Shown: positions 1 through 5,298 of the stretch, piece by piece
Position numbering within the stretch: the stretch's first letter is position 1
Layout: each line of letters starts with the position of its first letter
Assembly (NCBI GenBank): GCA_038817485.1
Contig: JAWAZL010000010.1
Coordinates: 1-48,293 of the forward strand
DNA: 48,293 nucleotides
Direction of reading: 5' to 3'
Origin: Nitrososphaerota archaeon
GTDB taxonomy: Archaea; Thermoproteota; Nitrososphaeria_A; Caldarchaeales; JAVZCJ01
Notes under the pieces: generated by a model
What the model saw: the letters and a program-made list of their open reading frames with translations, nothing else
Databases searched by the model: none
Told to the model about the DNA's origin: nothing
Position numbers and translations under genes: made by a program

Positions 1-998
1 CCATAAATTTGTGCAGCTCTAACTTGAAAATTTTCCATAAAAATTGGTGCTTCAACATCTGCCCTTCCAATCCATGTTATTTTCCCTCCTATTGCTAAAC
101 ATTTTTGCATTTCAGGCAAAGTTTTTAATGGTGCTCCTGCAGCTTCAACTTGAAGATCTGCTCCCATTCCATTTGTTACTTCCAAAACTTTTTCGTATGG
201 ATGAATATTTTCTTTCTCAAGTTTTATAGGATTAAAAACATAATCTGCTCCCATTTCTTTAGCTAATTTTGCCCTTTCTTCAGAAGTTTCAAAAGCAATT
301 ACTTTTCCAGCTCCACTTGCTTTTGCTAATGCTATTGAAGCTAATCCTATTGGCCCAGCTCCATAAACTACTACATATCCACCTGGATTAAATCCACCAG
401 CTCTTACAAAAATTGCATTATATGCTACACTTGTTGGCTCAACTAATGATCCTGCTTCATAAACTCTATCTTCAGAATTATAAATATTTAATAAATCGTT
501 TATCTTCCAACAATATTTAGCATCTATTGCGATATATTCTGCAAATCCTCCTTGAACTGTAAAACCCATTTCTTCAAGATTTTCACATTGATTTACATAA
601 CCTCTTCTACATGGAGTACAATATCCACACCACCACATTTCTTCAGCTGTAACCATATCTCCTTCTTTTAATTCTTTTACTTTCTCTCCAACTTTTACTA
701 CTTCTCCAGATAATTCATGTCCAATAACTACAGGTAACTTAACTAACCCAGGATAAAGCATATATCCTTCATTATCTTTTTCATACATATGGACATCTGA
801 TCCGCATATTCCACATGCTTTAACTTTTATTAAAACTTCCCTAGAACTTATTTTTGGAATATCTATTTCTTCAATTTTTAAATTTGGATTATTCCATATT
901 CTACTTCCAATTTTAACTTTCTTAGTTTCTACTTCTGTCTTAGAAGGAATATATCCTTTTCTAGGTTTCCAATTTGCATATAAAGTAGCTACTAACAT
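1..998 (-). CDS. Zinc-dependent alcohol/polyol dehydrogenase, IolM-like (3' end cut off by window edge)
   Basis: Medium-chain zinc dehydrogenase that probably oxidises a sugar or cyclitol hydroxyl with NAD(P). Reading the minus strand from the ATG at 996-998 gives 332 open codons to the edge. Visible in order: ACGICGSDVH (catalytic zinc Cys), GHELSGEVV, a structural-zinc cysteine cluster (WWCGYCTPCRRGYVNQC), and a Rossmann motif VVYGAGPIGLASIALA. An N-terminal extension of about 40 residues precedes the catalytic domain, and the KYCWKINDL segment is one I associate with scyllo-inosose 3-dehydrogenase (Thermotoga IolM); that identity is from memory. It is divergent from the creatininase and Gfo/Idh genes at 1145-3223, and this set matches the iolM-iolN-iolG trio. 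A TATA-like ATTTAAATAT lies about 20-30 bases upstream, so the mRNA is probably nearly leaderless. Confidence is high for the family and moderate for the substrate. Confidence 0.88.
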   Translation of the reverse strand, partial: MLVATLYANWKPRKGYIPSKTEVETKKVKIGSRIWNNPNLKIEEIDIPKISSREVLIKVKACGICGSDVHMYEKDNEGYMLYPGLVKLPVVIGHELSGEVVKVGEKVKELKEGDMVTAEEMWWCGYCTPCRRGYVNQCENLEEMGFTVQGGFAEYIAIDAKYCWKINDLLNIYNSEDRVYEAGSLVEPTSVAYNAIFVRAGGFNPGGYVVVYGAGPIGLASIALAKASGAGKVIAFETSEERAKLAKEMGADYVFNPIKLEKENIHPYEKVLEVTNGMGADLQVEAAGAPLKTLPEMQKCLAIGGKITWIGRADVEAPIFMENFQVRAAQIY

Positions 999-1144
999 AA
1001 TTATCTAAAAATAAATGGATATATTTAAATTTTGATTAGTTTAAAAACGACTGGAAAATAATGTTTAGGCTAGGAATCATATAACTTTAAGTTTGATATT
1101 TCTCTTTAAAAATTTTAAATATAACAAATTTTAAAATTAAGTAT

Positions 1145-2233
1145 ATGAAGCAAGAAAGAAAAATTCCACATGATTTAGTTTTTGAAGAAACAAGTGTTGG
1201 TAAATTGGAAAAAGAAATATGGCTTGCAAGTGAAGAAGATATAGATAAAATCTTAGAAGATTATGGTATCCCTTCACCTTCAGAATTAGCAAAACCAAAT
1301 GTTTACATACAAACTACTCCTGGATATAAAATTGAAGAAAATTTAAAAAAGAATGATATTCTTTTAATACCTGTAGGAAGCACGGAGTATCATGGAAAGC
1401 ATTTGCCATCAGGTGCTGATACATTTTTTGTCACTCAAATTTGTGAAGCAGTAAGAAGATATACTGAAAAGAAAGGAAGAGCGGTAAGCTTAGCTTGGCC
1501 GATAACTTATGGTGCTCATCCGTGGCATCATTATGGAATGCCAGGTACTGTAATCATAGAAGAAGATCATCTTAAGAACTATACTTTAGATATGATGCTT
1601 GGGTTTTGGAATATGGGTTTTAGGAAACAAATACTTATTAACAATCATGGTCATTTATGGGTTTTTGAATCAATTATTCAAGAATTTATGAAAAAATATC
1701 AATTACCAGGAATATATAGAGTAATAGATTGGCATAGAGCTTCAAGAAAATTTTTCAGAACAAGAGAAAGAGGAGGAGAATTAGAAACATGGTTTGTACA
1801 TGCAGATGAAGCAGAAACTTCCCTAGCTTTGCTTCTTATCCCTGAAATGGTTGAAATGAAATATGCTGTTAATACAGAACCTAAGCATTATTTGCCAAAT
1901 GGACATATAGATAATGCAGTAGATGGATTAGGAAGACCATCCATGTGGAGCTCAGGACAAGGACATATGCCTATTGAAATTGTATCAACTCCTGAAGGAG
2001 TAGTTGGAAAAGCTAAACTTGGAGAAGCAAGAAAAGTTAAAAGAGCAGTTGCTTTCTTCTTAAAATATTTAACATTATTAATAGATGAAATACTTGAAGT
2101 TTTTCCACCTGGAAAAGTTCCACCAGTTGAAGAAGTTACATACAGAACTGAAGAAGAAATGAAACCATATCTTTTACCTCCTGGAAGCAAAGGTTGGAAA
2201 CCAGTTTATGCTTTATTTAAAAGAGTAGACTGA
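1145..2233 (+). CDS. Creatininase-superfamily metal hydrolase, candidate 3-dehydro-scyllo-inosose hydrolase (IolN-like)
   Basis: Amidohydrolase-like metal enzyme of the creatininase superfamily, 362 aa. Three metal/active-site blocks are visible: GSTEYHGKHLPSGADTFF near residue 77, NNHGHLWVFE near residue 170, and HADEAETS near residue 220. It is longer than classical creatininase (about 250-260 aa), with a 60-70 residue N-terminal extension and a C-terminal tail. Three bases separate it from the Gfo/Idh dehydrogenase downstream, so the two are one operon, divergent from an IolM-like zinc dehydrogenase. In Thermotoga maritima a ring-opening hydrolase (IolN) lies between iolM and iolG, so hydrolysis of a diketo-inositol is the most economical guess. 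The alternative is a creatininase-family amidase for another substrate. A TATA-like TTTTAAATAT lies 20-30 bases upstream of the ATG. Confidence 0.85.
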   Translation: MKQERKIPHDLVFEETSVGKLEKEIWLASEEDIDKILEDYGIPSPSELAKPNVYIQTTPGYKIEENLKKNDILLIPVGSTEYHGKHLPSGADTFFVTQICEAVRRYTEKKGRAVSLAWPITYGAHPWHHYGMPGTVIIEEDHLKNYTLDMMLGFWNMGFRKQILINNHGHLWVFESIIQEFMKKYQLPGIYRVIDWHRASRKFFRTRERGGELETWFVHADEAETSLALLLIPEMVEMKYAVNTEPKHYLPNGHIDNAVDGLGRPSMWSSGQGHMPIEIVSTPEGVVGKAKLGEARKVKRAVAFFLKYLTLLIDEILEVFPPGKVPPVEEVTYRTEEEMKPYLLPPGSKGWKPVYALFKRVD

Positions 2234-2236
2234 AAA

Positions 2237-3223
2237 ATGAATAGAAATATTAATATAGGAATAATTGGAGCAGGTAAAATAGGAACCCTTCATGCAAAAA
2301 ATGTAGCATTATATACAAATGCGAAAGTTTTAGCTATAGCTGATGTAAATAAAATAGCTGCAGAAAATTTAGCAAAACAAATCGGAGCAAAGAAAGTTTA
2401 TTCTTCTTATGAAGATTTAATAAAAGATAAAGATATAGATGCTGTTGTTATTTCTTTACCAAATAATTTACATTATGAAGTATCTATTGCTGCTATTGAA
2501 GCTAATAAACATGTTTTTTGTGAAAAACCTTTATGTTTAAATATTAAAGAAGCTGAAGAAATAGTTAATAAAGTAGAAAAATACAAAGTAAAATATCAAG
2601 TAGGATATAATAGAAGATTTGATCCTTCATATGAAAAAGCAAAAGAATTAATTGATAAAGGTTACTTAGGAAAAATTTTAATTGCAAATTCAAATACTTT
2701 TGATCCTGAGCCACACTCAGGATGGGAAGCAAATGAAGACCTTAGTGGTGGAATACTTTTTACAACTTGTAGCCATGATTTTGATTTATTATATTGGTTA
2801 ATAGGATCAGAAGTAAATAGAGTATATGTTGAATCTAGAGGTAAATTTGGAAAAAATGAAAGCTTAATATGCTTTTTATCTTTTAAGAATGATGCTTTAG
2901 GAGTGGTAAGCACGATTGAAACATGCTCTTATGGACATGATGTAAAAACAGAAATAATAGGAGATAAAGCAGCAATTAGAATAGAAAAACCATCTTCAAC
3001 TTTTATTAAAATTATGGATAAGAATGGTATACACAATGATTATCCATATTGGTTTATAGAAAGATTTGAAGAATCTTATATTAAAGAAATACAAGATTTT
3101 GTAAAATGTATCATAGAAAATAAAGAACCAAGAGTAAGTGCAAAAGATGGAATGTATATTGTAAAAATATCTCAAGCTGCAAAAGAATCAAAACAAAAAG
3201 GAAAACCTACCATATTAGAATGA
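2237..3223 (+). CDS. Gfo/Idh/MocA-family dehydrogenase, probable myo-inositol 2-dehydrogenase (IolG-like)
   Basis: NAD(P)-dependent cytoplasmic oxidoreductase for sugars or cyclitols, 328 aa, which is normal for the family. The N-terminal Rossmann fold has GIIGAGKIG at residues 8-16. The family CEKPL motif carries the catalytic Lys near residue 95. GYNRRFDPSY is typical of inositol dehydrogenase relatives, and SHDFDLLYWLIGS holds the conserved active-site D/H pair near residue 180. It follows the creatininase-family gene by 3 bases and precedes the broken URO-D-like gene by 13, so all three were probably one transcript. With the IolM-like enzyme upstream, oxidation of myo-inositol to scyllo-inosose is the best inference. 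Other Gfo/Idh substrates cannot be excluded. Confidence 0.88.
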   Translation: MNRNINIGIIGAGKIGTLHAKNVALYTNAKVLAIADVNKIAAENLAKQIGAKKVYSSYEDLIKDKDIDAVVISLPNNLHYEVSIAAIEANKHVFCEKPLCLNIKEAEEIVNKVEKYKVKYQVGYNRRFDPSYEKAKELIDKGYLGKILIANSNTFDPEPHSGWEANEDLSGGILFTTCSHDFDLLYWLIGSEVNRVYVESRGKFGKNESLICFLSFKNDALGVVSTIETCSYGHDVKTEIIGDKAAIRIEKPSSTFIKIMDKNGIHNDYPYWFIERFEESYIKEIQDFVKCIIENKEPRVSAKDGMYIVKISQAAKESKQKGKPTILE

Positions 3224-3236
3224 TTTCTTAAAAAGA

Positions 3237-4400
3237 ATGGCCTATATGGAACATGTAGAAAGAGTATTAACAACTATCAATTTAAAAGAGCCTGATAGAG
3301 TTCCATTAGATCTAGGAGGTCCTATAAGCGGTATATCTAAAATTGCTTATTATAGATTAGTAAATTATTTAGGATTAAAAGATATAAAATTAATTGTTTA
3401 TGATAAAATGCAAGGATTAGTAGAAATAGATGAAAGAATTTTAAATATTTTTAATATTGATTTTAGGCATATAAATATAAATGCTCCAACTAAAGAAGAT
3501 GAAAATTATAAAGAAATTAATGAAAATTGTTATATTGATGAATGGGGAATAATGCATAAAAGACAATATCATGGATATTATTACGAAATAGTTGAACAAT
3601 ATAGTCCATTATATAATGCAAAAAATATTGAAGATATAGAAAATTATAAAGGAGCTGTACCTCATCCTAATAGATTTAAAAATCTTTCTAAAAAAGCAAA
3701 AGAATATTCTGAAAATGGATTTGCTGTTACAGCAGATGCATTTACTGGAGGCATTCTTGAATTAGCAGTTTGGCTTAGAGGTTTTAATAAATTCTATCGT
3801 GATATAGCAATAAATATAGATTTTGTAAACGCATTATTAAATAAAAACATTAGAATTGCAAAAATCCTTTTGGAAAGAATATTTAAATGAAGTAGGAGAT
3901 TATATCAATATTGTTCTTTATGGAGATGATTATGGTCATCAACAAGGATTATTAACATCACCAAAAATATGGAGAGAATACATTAAGCCTAAAGTTAAAG
4001 AATTAATTTCTTTAATAAAAAAAAGAAGTTAAGCATGTAAAAATTTAATTACATAGTTGCGGTTCAATAGAGCCTCTTATAAAAGATTTAATTAAAATAG
4101 GTTTTTGATATAATAAATCCTATTCAACCTAGAGCAAAAAATATGGATTCAAAATTATTAAAAGAGAAATATGGGAAAAATGTATGTTTTCATGGAGGAA
4201 TAGATATTCAATATACTCTTCCAAGAGGTTCTCAAAAAGATGTAGAAAATGAAATGAAGAATAGAATTAAAGCACTTGCTCCTGTAGGAGGTTATATTTT
4301 AGCTGCAGCTCATAATATTCAACCAGATATTCCTCCAGAAAACATAGTTACAATGCACAAGTCTGCTTTGCGATATGGAAAATATCCTTTAACAATTTAA
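3237..4400 (+). pseudogene. Uroporphyrinogen decarboxylase-family (corrinoid/sugar-linked) gene, broken by frameshifts and a stop
   Basis: Fragments of one URO-D-superfamily protein (about 387 codons if repaired) lie in three successive frames. Frame A runs 3237-3890 and opens MEHVERVLTTINLKEPDRVP, the usual start of this family. It is lost at the A-run 3860-3864, where an extra A moves the reading to a frame encoding YGDDYGHQQGLLTSP until TAA at 4030. A second extra A near 4016-4024 leads to a third frame with an in-frame TAA at 4046 followed by HSCGSIEPLIKDLIKIG. An extra T at 4101-4106 restores the first frame, which ends with FHGGIDIQYTLPRGS and a normal C-terminus. HSCGS and GGID are family landmarks. 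The lesions add one base each in homopolymers, so assembly error is possible, but neighbouring genes are intact and there is also a true stop. It may still be expressed as fragments. Confidence 0.85.
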
Positions 4401-4497: not shown

Positions 4498-5298
4498 ATG
4501 AGTACTACATTAAAAAAGAATTTTTTAAAATTATTAGATAAAGATATTGAATTTAGATACGCAGTAGCTGGCTACTTAGGATTATCTGAAATTTTAAAAA
4601 GATTAGATTCATTAGAAGAAGGGCAAAATAAATTATTCGAAGGTCAAAAAAGAATATGGGAAAATATTGAGAAATTATGGGAAAATCAAAATAGATTATG
4701 GGAAGAAGTAAGAGAATTAAGAGAAGGACAAAATAAGCTTTGGGAGGAAGTAAAAGAGTTAAGAGAAAGTCAAAATAAGCTTTGGGAAAATCAAAATAGA
4801 TTATGGGAAGAAGTTAGAGGATTAAGAGAAGAACAAATAAAACACTCAAAAATATTAGAAGAACATAGTGAAATATTAAAAGAACACTCTCGAATATTAG
4901 AGGAACATAGTAAAGCACTAGGTCAATTAATTCATAGTCAAGGCATTTTAGGAATGGAGCTAGGGGCTCTTACTGAAAGTACTTATGCTAATTTTATTTT
5001 AGAAGATTTAAGTAAAATAATTGCTTCTAATAAAGAAAATATATTATTAAGATATAGAAATGAAAGAATTGATGAAAAAGATATAGACTTACTTATAATA
5101 ACAGAAAGGCATGCATATGTAGTAGAAATTAAGATTCATCCTAGAATAGAGGATATTAATGAATTATTATTAAAAAAAGATATTATAATAAAGAATTATC
5201 CAGATAAAGAAGTAGTACCAATACTTACGGGTGCATTAATAGGGAAAGATATAGAACAATATGCGAAAAGCAAAGATATAAAAGTATATAAATACTAA
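4498..5298 (+). CDS. Coiled-coil protein with C-terminal PD-(D/E)XK-like domain (DUF3782-type)
   Basis: Protein of 266 aa whose function is not known. Residues 35-145 are a long coiled coil built from internal repeats: an eleven-residue-like pattern (QNKLWEEVKELRE, QNRLWEEVRELRE) and then four clean heptads (EEHSKIL, EEHSEIL, KEHSRIL, EEHSKAL). Residues 160-266 resemble a PD-(D/E)XK nuclease fold: EKDIDLLIITERHAYVVEIK supplies the D...ExK signature near residues 195-211. Proteins of this architecture (annotated DUF3782 or 'PD-(D/E)XK nuclease family') are common in thermophilic archaea and vary in coiled-coil length. It has its own TATA box and stands alone. A DNA-binding or DNA-cleaving role is inferred only from the fold signature. 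Confidence 0.75.
   Translation: MSTTLKKNFLKLLDKDIEFRYAVAGYLGLSEILKRLDSLEEGQNKLFEGQKRIWENIEKLWENQNRLWEEVRELREGQNKLWEEVKELRESQNKLWENQNRLWEEVRGLREEQIKHSKILEEHSEILKEHSRILEEHSKALGQLIHSQGILGMELGALTESTYANFILEDLSKIIASNKENILLRYRNERIDEKDIDLLIITERHAYVVEIKIHPRIEDINELLLKKDIIIKNYPDKEVVPILTGALIGKDIEQYAKSKDIKVYKY
4678..4814 (+). repeat. Intragenic direct repeat encoding coiled-coil units
   Basis: An exact 32-base sequence (starting TGGGAAAATCAAAATAG) occurs at 4678-4709 and again at 4783-4814, a 105-base (35-codon) period. Diverged copies of the LWEEV/ELRE unit lie between them. The near-identity at DNA level suggests recent expansion of the coiled coil by unequal recombination or slippage. Confidence 0.75.

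Follow-up and report, generated by a model that had tools for sequence, protein, structure and literature searches.

A probable archaeal variant of the ring-opening route of cyclitol degradation, whose first step is uncertain and whose ending probably differs

The first three genes of a 48,293-nucleotide stretch of Nitrososphaerota DNA (the window, contig C10 of genome G000) are read here, with moderate confidence, as the core of a cyclitol-degrading route that opens the ring as in Thermotoga and has an altered lower branch. The upper branch is well supported. Gene presence, membership in the IolM, IolN and IolO families, clustering in relatives and purifying selection can be read from the sequences themselves; from the families and from stereochemistry we infer the order of reactions, including the substrate entry, every substrate and the entire lower branch. 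Because the IolG-like protein lacks a key catalytic residue and the usual downstream enzymes are missing from the genome, both the beginning and the end of the archaeal route appear to differ from those in Thermotoga.

Table 1. Positions of the genes discussed. Plain numbers are window positions; other locations give genome, contig and positions.
Location	Strand	Gene	Family model or remark
3..998	-	IolM (scyllo-inosose 3-dehydrogenase family; zinc alcohol dehydrogenase)	NF041097; 3' end missing
1145..2233	+	IolN, long type, 362 aa (3-dehydro-scyllo-inosose hydrolase family, creatininase fold)	NF041098
2237..3223	+	Gfo/Idh/MocA dehydrogenase, IolG-like, 328 aa	TIGR04380 below cut-off; triad Asp -> Thr
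3237-4400	+	URO-D (corrinoid methyltransferase-like) pseudogene, frameshifted	directly downstream of IolG-like gene
G000:C6:52129-53619		UxaE-like epimerase	PF16257
G000:C6:56235-57152		TIM-barrel isomerase, xylose-isomerase-like	
G000:C22:21176-21982		IolO	NF041099, 307 bits vs cut-off 300
G000:C1:21240-23369		Transaldolase-like gene	

The three genes of the window

Genes for a zinc dehydrogenase, a long creatininase-family hydrolase and a Gfo/Idh dehydrogenase adjoin one another, just as a preliminary description had said, and the first is transcribed divergently from the other two. E-values against the IolM, IolN and IolG models (1e-147, 1e-99 and 3e-89) are far beyond chance. The first base of the contig is also the first of the window, so that the IolM gene is incomplete and encodes only 332 of ~389 residues. 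The trio is kept in the sister species G188. It is genuine, and purifying selection on it is strong: between the two species dN/dS is 0.09-0.12 (gene by gene 0.091, 0.088 and 0.115), below the values of 0.19 and 0.22 found for two neighbouring genes. The contig is archaeal and also carries an Alba gene, above cut-off, and a geranylgeranyl-reductase-family gene. Contamination by a bacterial contig was rejected because of these archaeal neighbours and the conservation of the locus in G188.

Although truncated, the IolM product scores 491 bits against NF041097 (cut-off 450); the full-length G188 protein (389 aa, 97% identical to the window copy) scores 568 bits. The best PDB match is 3ip1, which we take to be Thermotoga maritima TM0412. 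In a 77-row tree the window protein falls in a clade of 16 Thermoproteota rows (support 86, inner branches 96-98) and groups with IolM proteins that adjoin IolN and IolO, and 3ip1 belongs to the second major clade; this and the other trees are quick searches without bootstraps and contain several long branches. A recent transfer of IolM from Thermotoga was considered and is unsupported, the window protein being placed in the archaeal clade.

IolN scores 333 bits against NF041098 (cut-off 245). The fold of its model resembles creatininase (TM 0.70-0.78 by target length), its solved-structure matches are creatininases only, and the candidate metal-ligand residues E81, H83, D92, H168, E222 and E224 are invariant in 24 relatives. 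Hydrolysis of the diketo-inositol ring is its putative family function. In the IolN tree the long type is common to the window, to Chloroflexota and others, and to a Thermococcus-labelled metagenome-assembled genome. The window protein groups with bacterial sequences, so that a transfer, whichever its direction, is likely. In bacteria, 36 loci extend 4 kb or more to either side of a long-type IolN; the genes nearby include IolM (32 loci), IolO (32), an IolG-like gene (28) and UxaE (11). The contig from the Thermococcus-labelled genome (L110, JALTMZ010000187.1) holds IolM-IolN and a zinc dehydrogenase; its IolN is 72% identical to that of the window, and its label or binning may be wrong. Two further IolN-like genes of the creatininase family were seen: one in G000 (L055:9270-10103, contig C20), whose six-frame match contains a single in-frame stop, and one in G188 (L040:9246-10166), of the ~260-bit type and adjoining ribose-type transporter genes.

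The third protein scores 299 bits against TIGR04380, under the cut-off of 355. Its best PDB match is 3ezy, presumably T. maritima TM0414. A Lys-Asp-His triad is catalytic in known inositol dehydrogenases (PMC9603128). The window protein keeps the Lys and the His and has Thr in place of the catalytic Asp (Asp172 of B. subtilis IolG), its motif reading LFTTCSHDFD versus LFLDMTIHDFD. This replacement is common only to the window, G188 and G235 proteins, all of one order; every other protein in the alignment, whether from bacteria or archaea, has the Asp, except for one with Glu. The three proteins also form a branch of their own, apart from the 3ezy clade. OxiC, a homologue from C. glutamicum without the catalytic Asp, has no inositol dehydrogenase activity (PMC9603128). 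Because of the Thr and the separate branch, the third protein is not filed here as IolG, and automatic naming as IolG would hide its changed active site. It is conserved and probably active on some substrate. A second Gfo/Idh gene (L003), considered as the real IolG, keeps the Asp, and its motif resembles those of UDP-sugar dehydrogenases (one gene read). Of the Thermotoga-type trio proposed in the preliminary description, the IolM and IolN assignments are supported by curated models and trees, and IolO, found elsewhere in the genome, can be added by its curated model; the IolG assignment and the complete pathway are not supported.

Companion genes in the genome and in other archaea

Synteny with G188:C21 sets the end of G000:C6 beside the start of the window, the alignment of C6 ending at 4199 and that of the window starting at 4976; because the gap is unsequenced, the adjacency of C6 and C10 is one that we infer. 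The terminal genes of C6 encode a UxaE-family protein, a xylose-isomerase-like TIM barrel and a HAD phosphatase. The UxaE-like protein scores 107 bits against PF16257 (cut-off 27.1) and shares 59% identity with 9kcs, a solved isomerase, and only 26% with the UxaE of L041. A literature search for 9KCS yielded nothing useful, and a search of the G188 genome found no UxaE-family match. The left flank had earlier been named as a place to look for an IolO-type epimerase and sugar transporters. The UxaE-like gene and the TIM barrel on that probable flank support the preliminary interpretation. IolO is on another contig (C22); its best PDB match is 2zvr, labelled TM_0416. A transporter adjoins the cluster in relatives; in the fragmentary contigs of G000 it has no full-length match, and the sugar-binding protein of the sister species has no orthologue there. 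IolO is not on the window contig, and the trio, though adjacent, is divergent; hence there is no single iol cluster in G000. The IlvD gene beside IolO was considered as a sugar-acid dehydratase and rejected, as it is the sole copy and scores as a true dihydroxy-acid dehydratase. In G188 a third IolO-like gene (L101:9545-13029, contig C2) lies near a gene for a 626-aa protein that by eye is of the corrinoid-activating ferredoxin type.

An archaeal context had been expected to be unusual. It is not: iol-type clusters are not rare in archaea, and numerous families of the phylum have them. IolN matches exceed the curated cut-off in 21 of 398 sampled Thermoproteota genomes and reach at least 180 bits in 39; the other IolN proteins of the phylum belong either to a short type that scores ~560 bits (G261, G343) or to a distant one that scores ~250. 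In the same order, a single cluster (L041) runs transporter, IolG-like, IolM, IolN, IolO, transaldolase-like, UxaE, hydroxyacid dehydrogenase and TIM barrel. All eight enzymes lie within ~11 kb in G342 (L204), and the same eight occupy adjoining stretches in G380 (L050 and L205). IolN-type and UxaE-family genes co-occur in 25 genomes against 3.6 expected, a genome-level count that ignores relatedness; at the family level the association is still strong (14 shared families of 20 and 15). In G261 and G343, IolN-IolM-zinc dehydrogenase-IolO clusters lack IolG (L042-L044), two of them include a PfkB kinase, and their zinc dehydrogenase may carry out the first step. Literature searches for inositol catabolism in archaea yielded nothing that bears on this route. 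If the present reading is true, ring-opening inositol degradation extends to a broad set of archaea.

The proposed route and its alternatives

In the route proposed here a dehydrogenase, perhaps the IolG-like protein, although its part is uncertain, would yield a keto-inositol (inosose). IolM would convert the inosose to a diketone, IolN would hydrolyse the ring of the diketone to give 5-keto-L-gluconate, IolO would epimerise this to D-tagaturonate, and the UxaE-like enzyme would convert D-tagaturonate to D-fructuronate. The transaldolase-fold enzyme would then cleave D-fructuronate to dihydroxyacetone and tartronate semialdehyde, replacing the UxaD/UxuA branch, and the TIM-barrel isomerase and a 2-hydroxyacid dehydrogenase would carry tartronate semialdehyde to D-glycerate, to be followed by glycerate kinase.

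In relatives the cluster includes a ~710-aa protein with a transaldolase fold, a TIM barrel that resembles IolO, and a 2-hydroxyacid dehydrogenase resembling hydroxypyruvate/glyoxylate reductases; in G000 this dehydrogenase, the transaldolase-like gene and IolO are dispersed among contigs. Among the genomes tested, the transaldolase-like protein is present in 20 of 23 that have a UxaE-family gene versus 2 of 12 that do not, counts that likewise ignore relatedness. Its model (pLDDT 91) matches transaldolases (Foldseek E 6e-9), and its invariant Lys367 aligns with the transaldolase Schiff-base Lys. Class I transaldolases cleave the fructose configuration, and this fits the configuration that IolO and then UxaE would give. 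The 2-hydroxyacid dehydrogenases of G235, G342 and G380 score above the glyoxylate-reductase cut-off, and that of G000 is below it (295 vs 455). Glycerate kinase is present in 20/20 genomes; dihydroxyacetone kinase (Dak1) is present in only 2/20, which counts against the proposed route. So do the dispersed genes and the low dehydrogenase score of G000, its lack of an orthologue of the sister's sugar-binding protein, the missing UxaE-family match in G188, and the loss of the catalytic Asp from the IolG-like protein together with the inactivity of OxiC. The proposal gives an uncharacterised transaldolase-fold family a testable function, in a non-phosphorylated route from ketouronates to three-carbon units. 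Its fullest form is tentative: a cyclitol pathway of Thermoproteota in which transaldolase-fold cleavage of D-fructuronate leads to D-glycerate, some members entering by corrinoid-dependent demethylation of O-methyl-inositol.

It is possible, if doubtful, that the same ring-opening enzymes take an input other than plain myo-inositol, either another cyclitol, for instance an O-methyl inositol that corrinoid methyltransferases would demethylate, or an inosose from a different dehydrogenase, the specificity of the IolG-like protein having changed. The catalytic Asp is lost only in this order, and the gene directly downstream of the trio is a URO-D methyltransferase-like pseudogene. G188 has an intact corrinoid-protein gene upstream of IolN and an intact URO-D gene between IolM and a transporter, whose binding protein is nearest to the rhizopine-binding family (192 bits, under the cut-off of 420), and the transaldolase-like gene of G225 is flanked by URO-D-like and corrinoid-protein genes. 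However, most other clusters are without URO-D and corrinoid genes, the window URO-D gene is broken, and proteins of these kinds serve many methyl donors. The substrate may be other than plain myo-inositol, and the neighbouring genes suggest methylated cyclitols. In the G225 locus (L207:7859-14454) the URO-D-like flanks are two, and the corrinoid protein is 66% identical to that of G188.

A different sugar route with common intermediates, such as degradation of L-glucose or L-gluconate via 5-keto-L-gluconate, is unlikely. L-glucose degradation does include 5-keto-L-gluconate, a C-4 epimerase and D-tagaturonate (PMC12632266), but IolN belongs to a ring-opening hydrolase family with no role there, and IolM and IolN occur together across phyla, as in the bacterial loci counted above.

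The complete canonical Thermotoga pathway via UxaD, UxuA and KDG is disfavoured in G000 and very improbable. Genes for IolM, IolN, IolO and a UxaE-family protein are present, but the third gene fails the IolG tests, and UxaD (PF08125) and UxuA (PF03786) had no match in a six-frame family search of G000, the kind of search on which absences in this genome are based, which found the controls, T. maritima included. Among 20 genomes of pathway-bearing archaea, UxuA is missing in 16, with only weak matches in 2 more, and UxaD in 19; the relatives without UxaD and UxuA include one single-contig genome. Because these two enzymes are missing, the complete pathway is unsupported.

That the trio is a decaying remnant, cut off beside a pseudogene and belonging to a cluster divided among contigs and rearranged in the sister species, can scarcely be credited, since all three genes have low dN/dS, the truncation is a contig end and IolM is intact in the sister; the selection data refute decay of the IolN and IolG-like genes.

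Comparison with known systems

Rodionova et al. reportedly described in 2013 the inositol pathway of T. maritima, with IolG, IolM, IolN and IolO. G000 resembles it in having the IolM, IolN and IolO families and a candidate UxaE-family epimerase. It differs in its IolG-like protein without the catalytic Asp, its long-type IolN, the position of IolO outside the cluster and the lack of UxaD and UxuA, in whose place the transaldolase-like enzyme would act. Bacterial long-IolN clusters (Chloroflexota, Acidobacteriota and Caldanaerobacter subterraneus, L184) are similar in their IolN, which is 60-67% identical to that of the window, and in their IolM-IolN-IolO(-UxaE) neighbourhoods; in contrast, their IolG keeps the Asp, and no transaldolase-like gene was found within 9 kb. 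In other Thermoproteota clusters, such as L204 of G342, L050 and L205 of G380 and L051 of G348, IolN is of a distant subtype that is shorter and scores close to the cut-off of the model, and IolG keeps the Asp; both features set them apart from G000. Their IolM comes from the archaeal clade to which that of G000 belongs, and they share with G000 the families of the UxaE-like and TIM-barrel proteins and, except in G348, the transaldolase-like gene.
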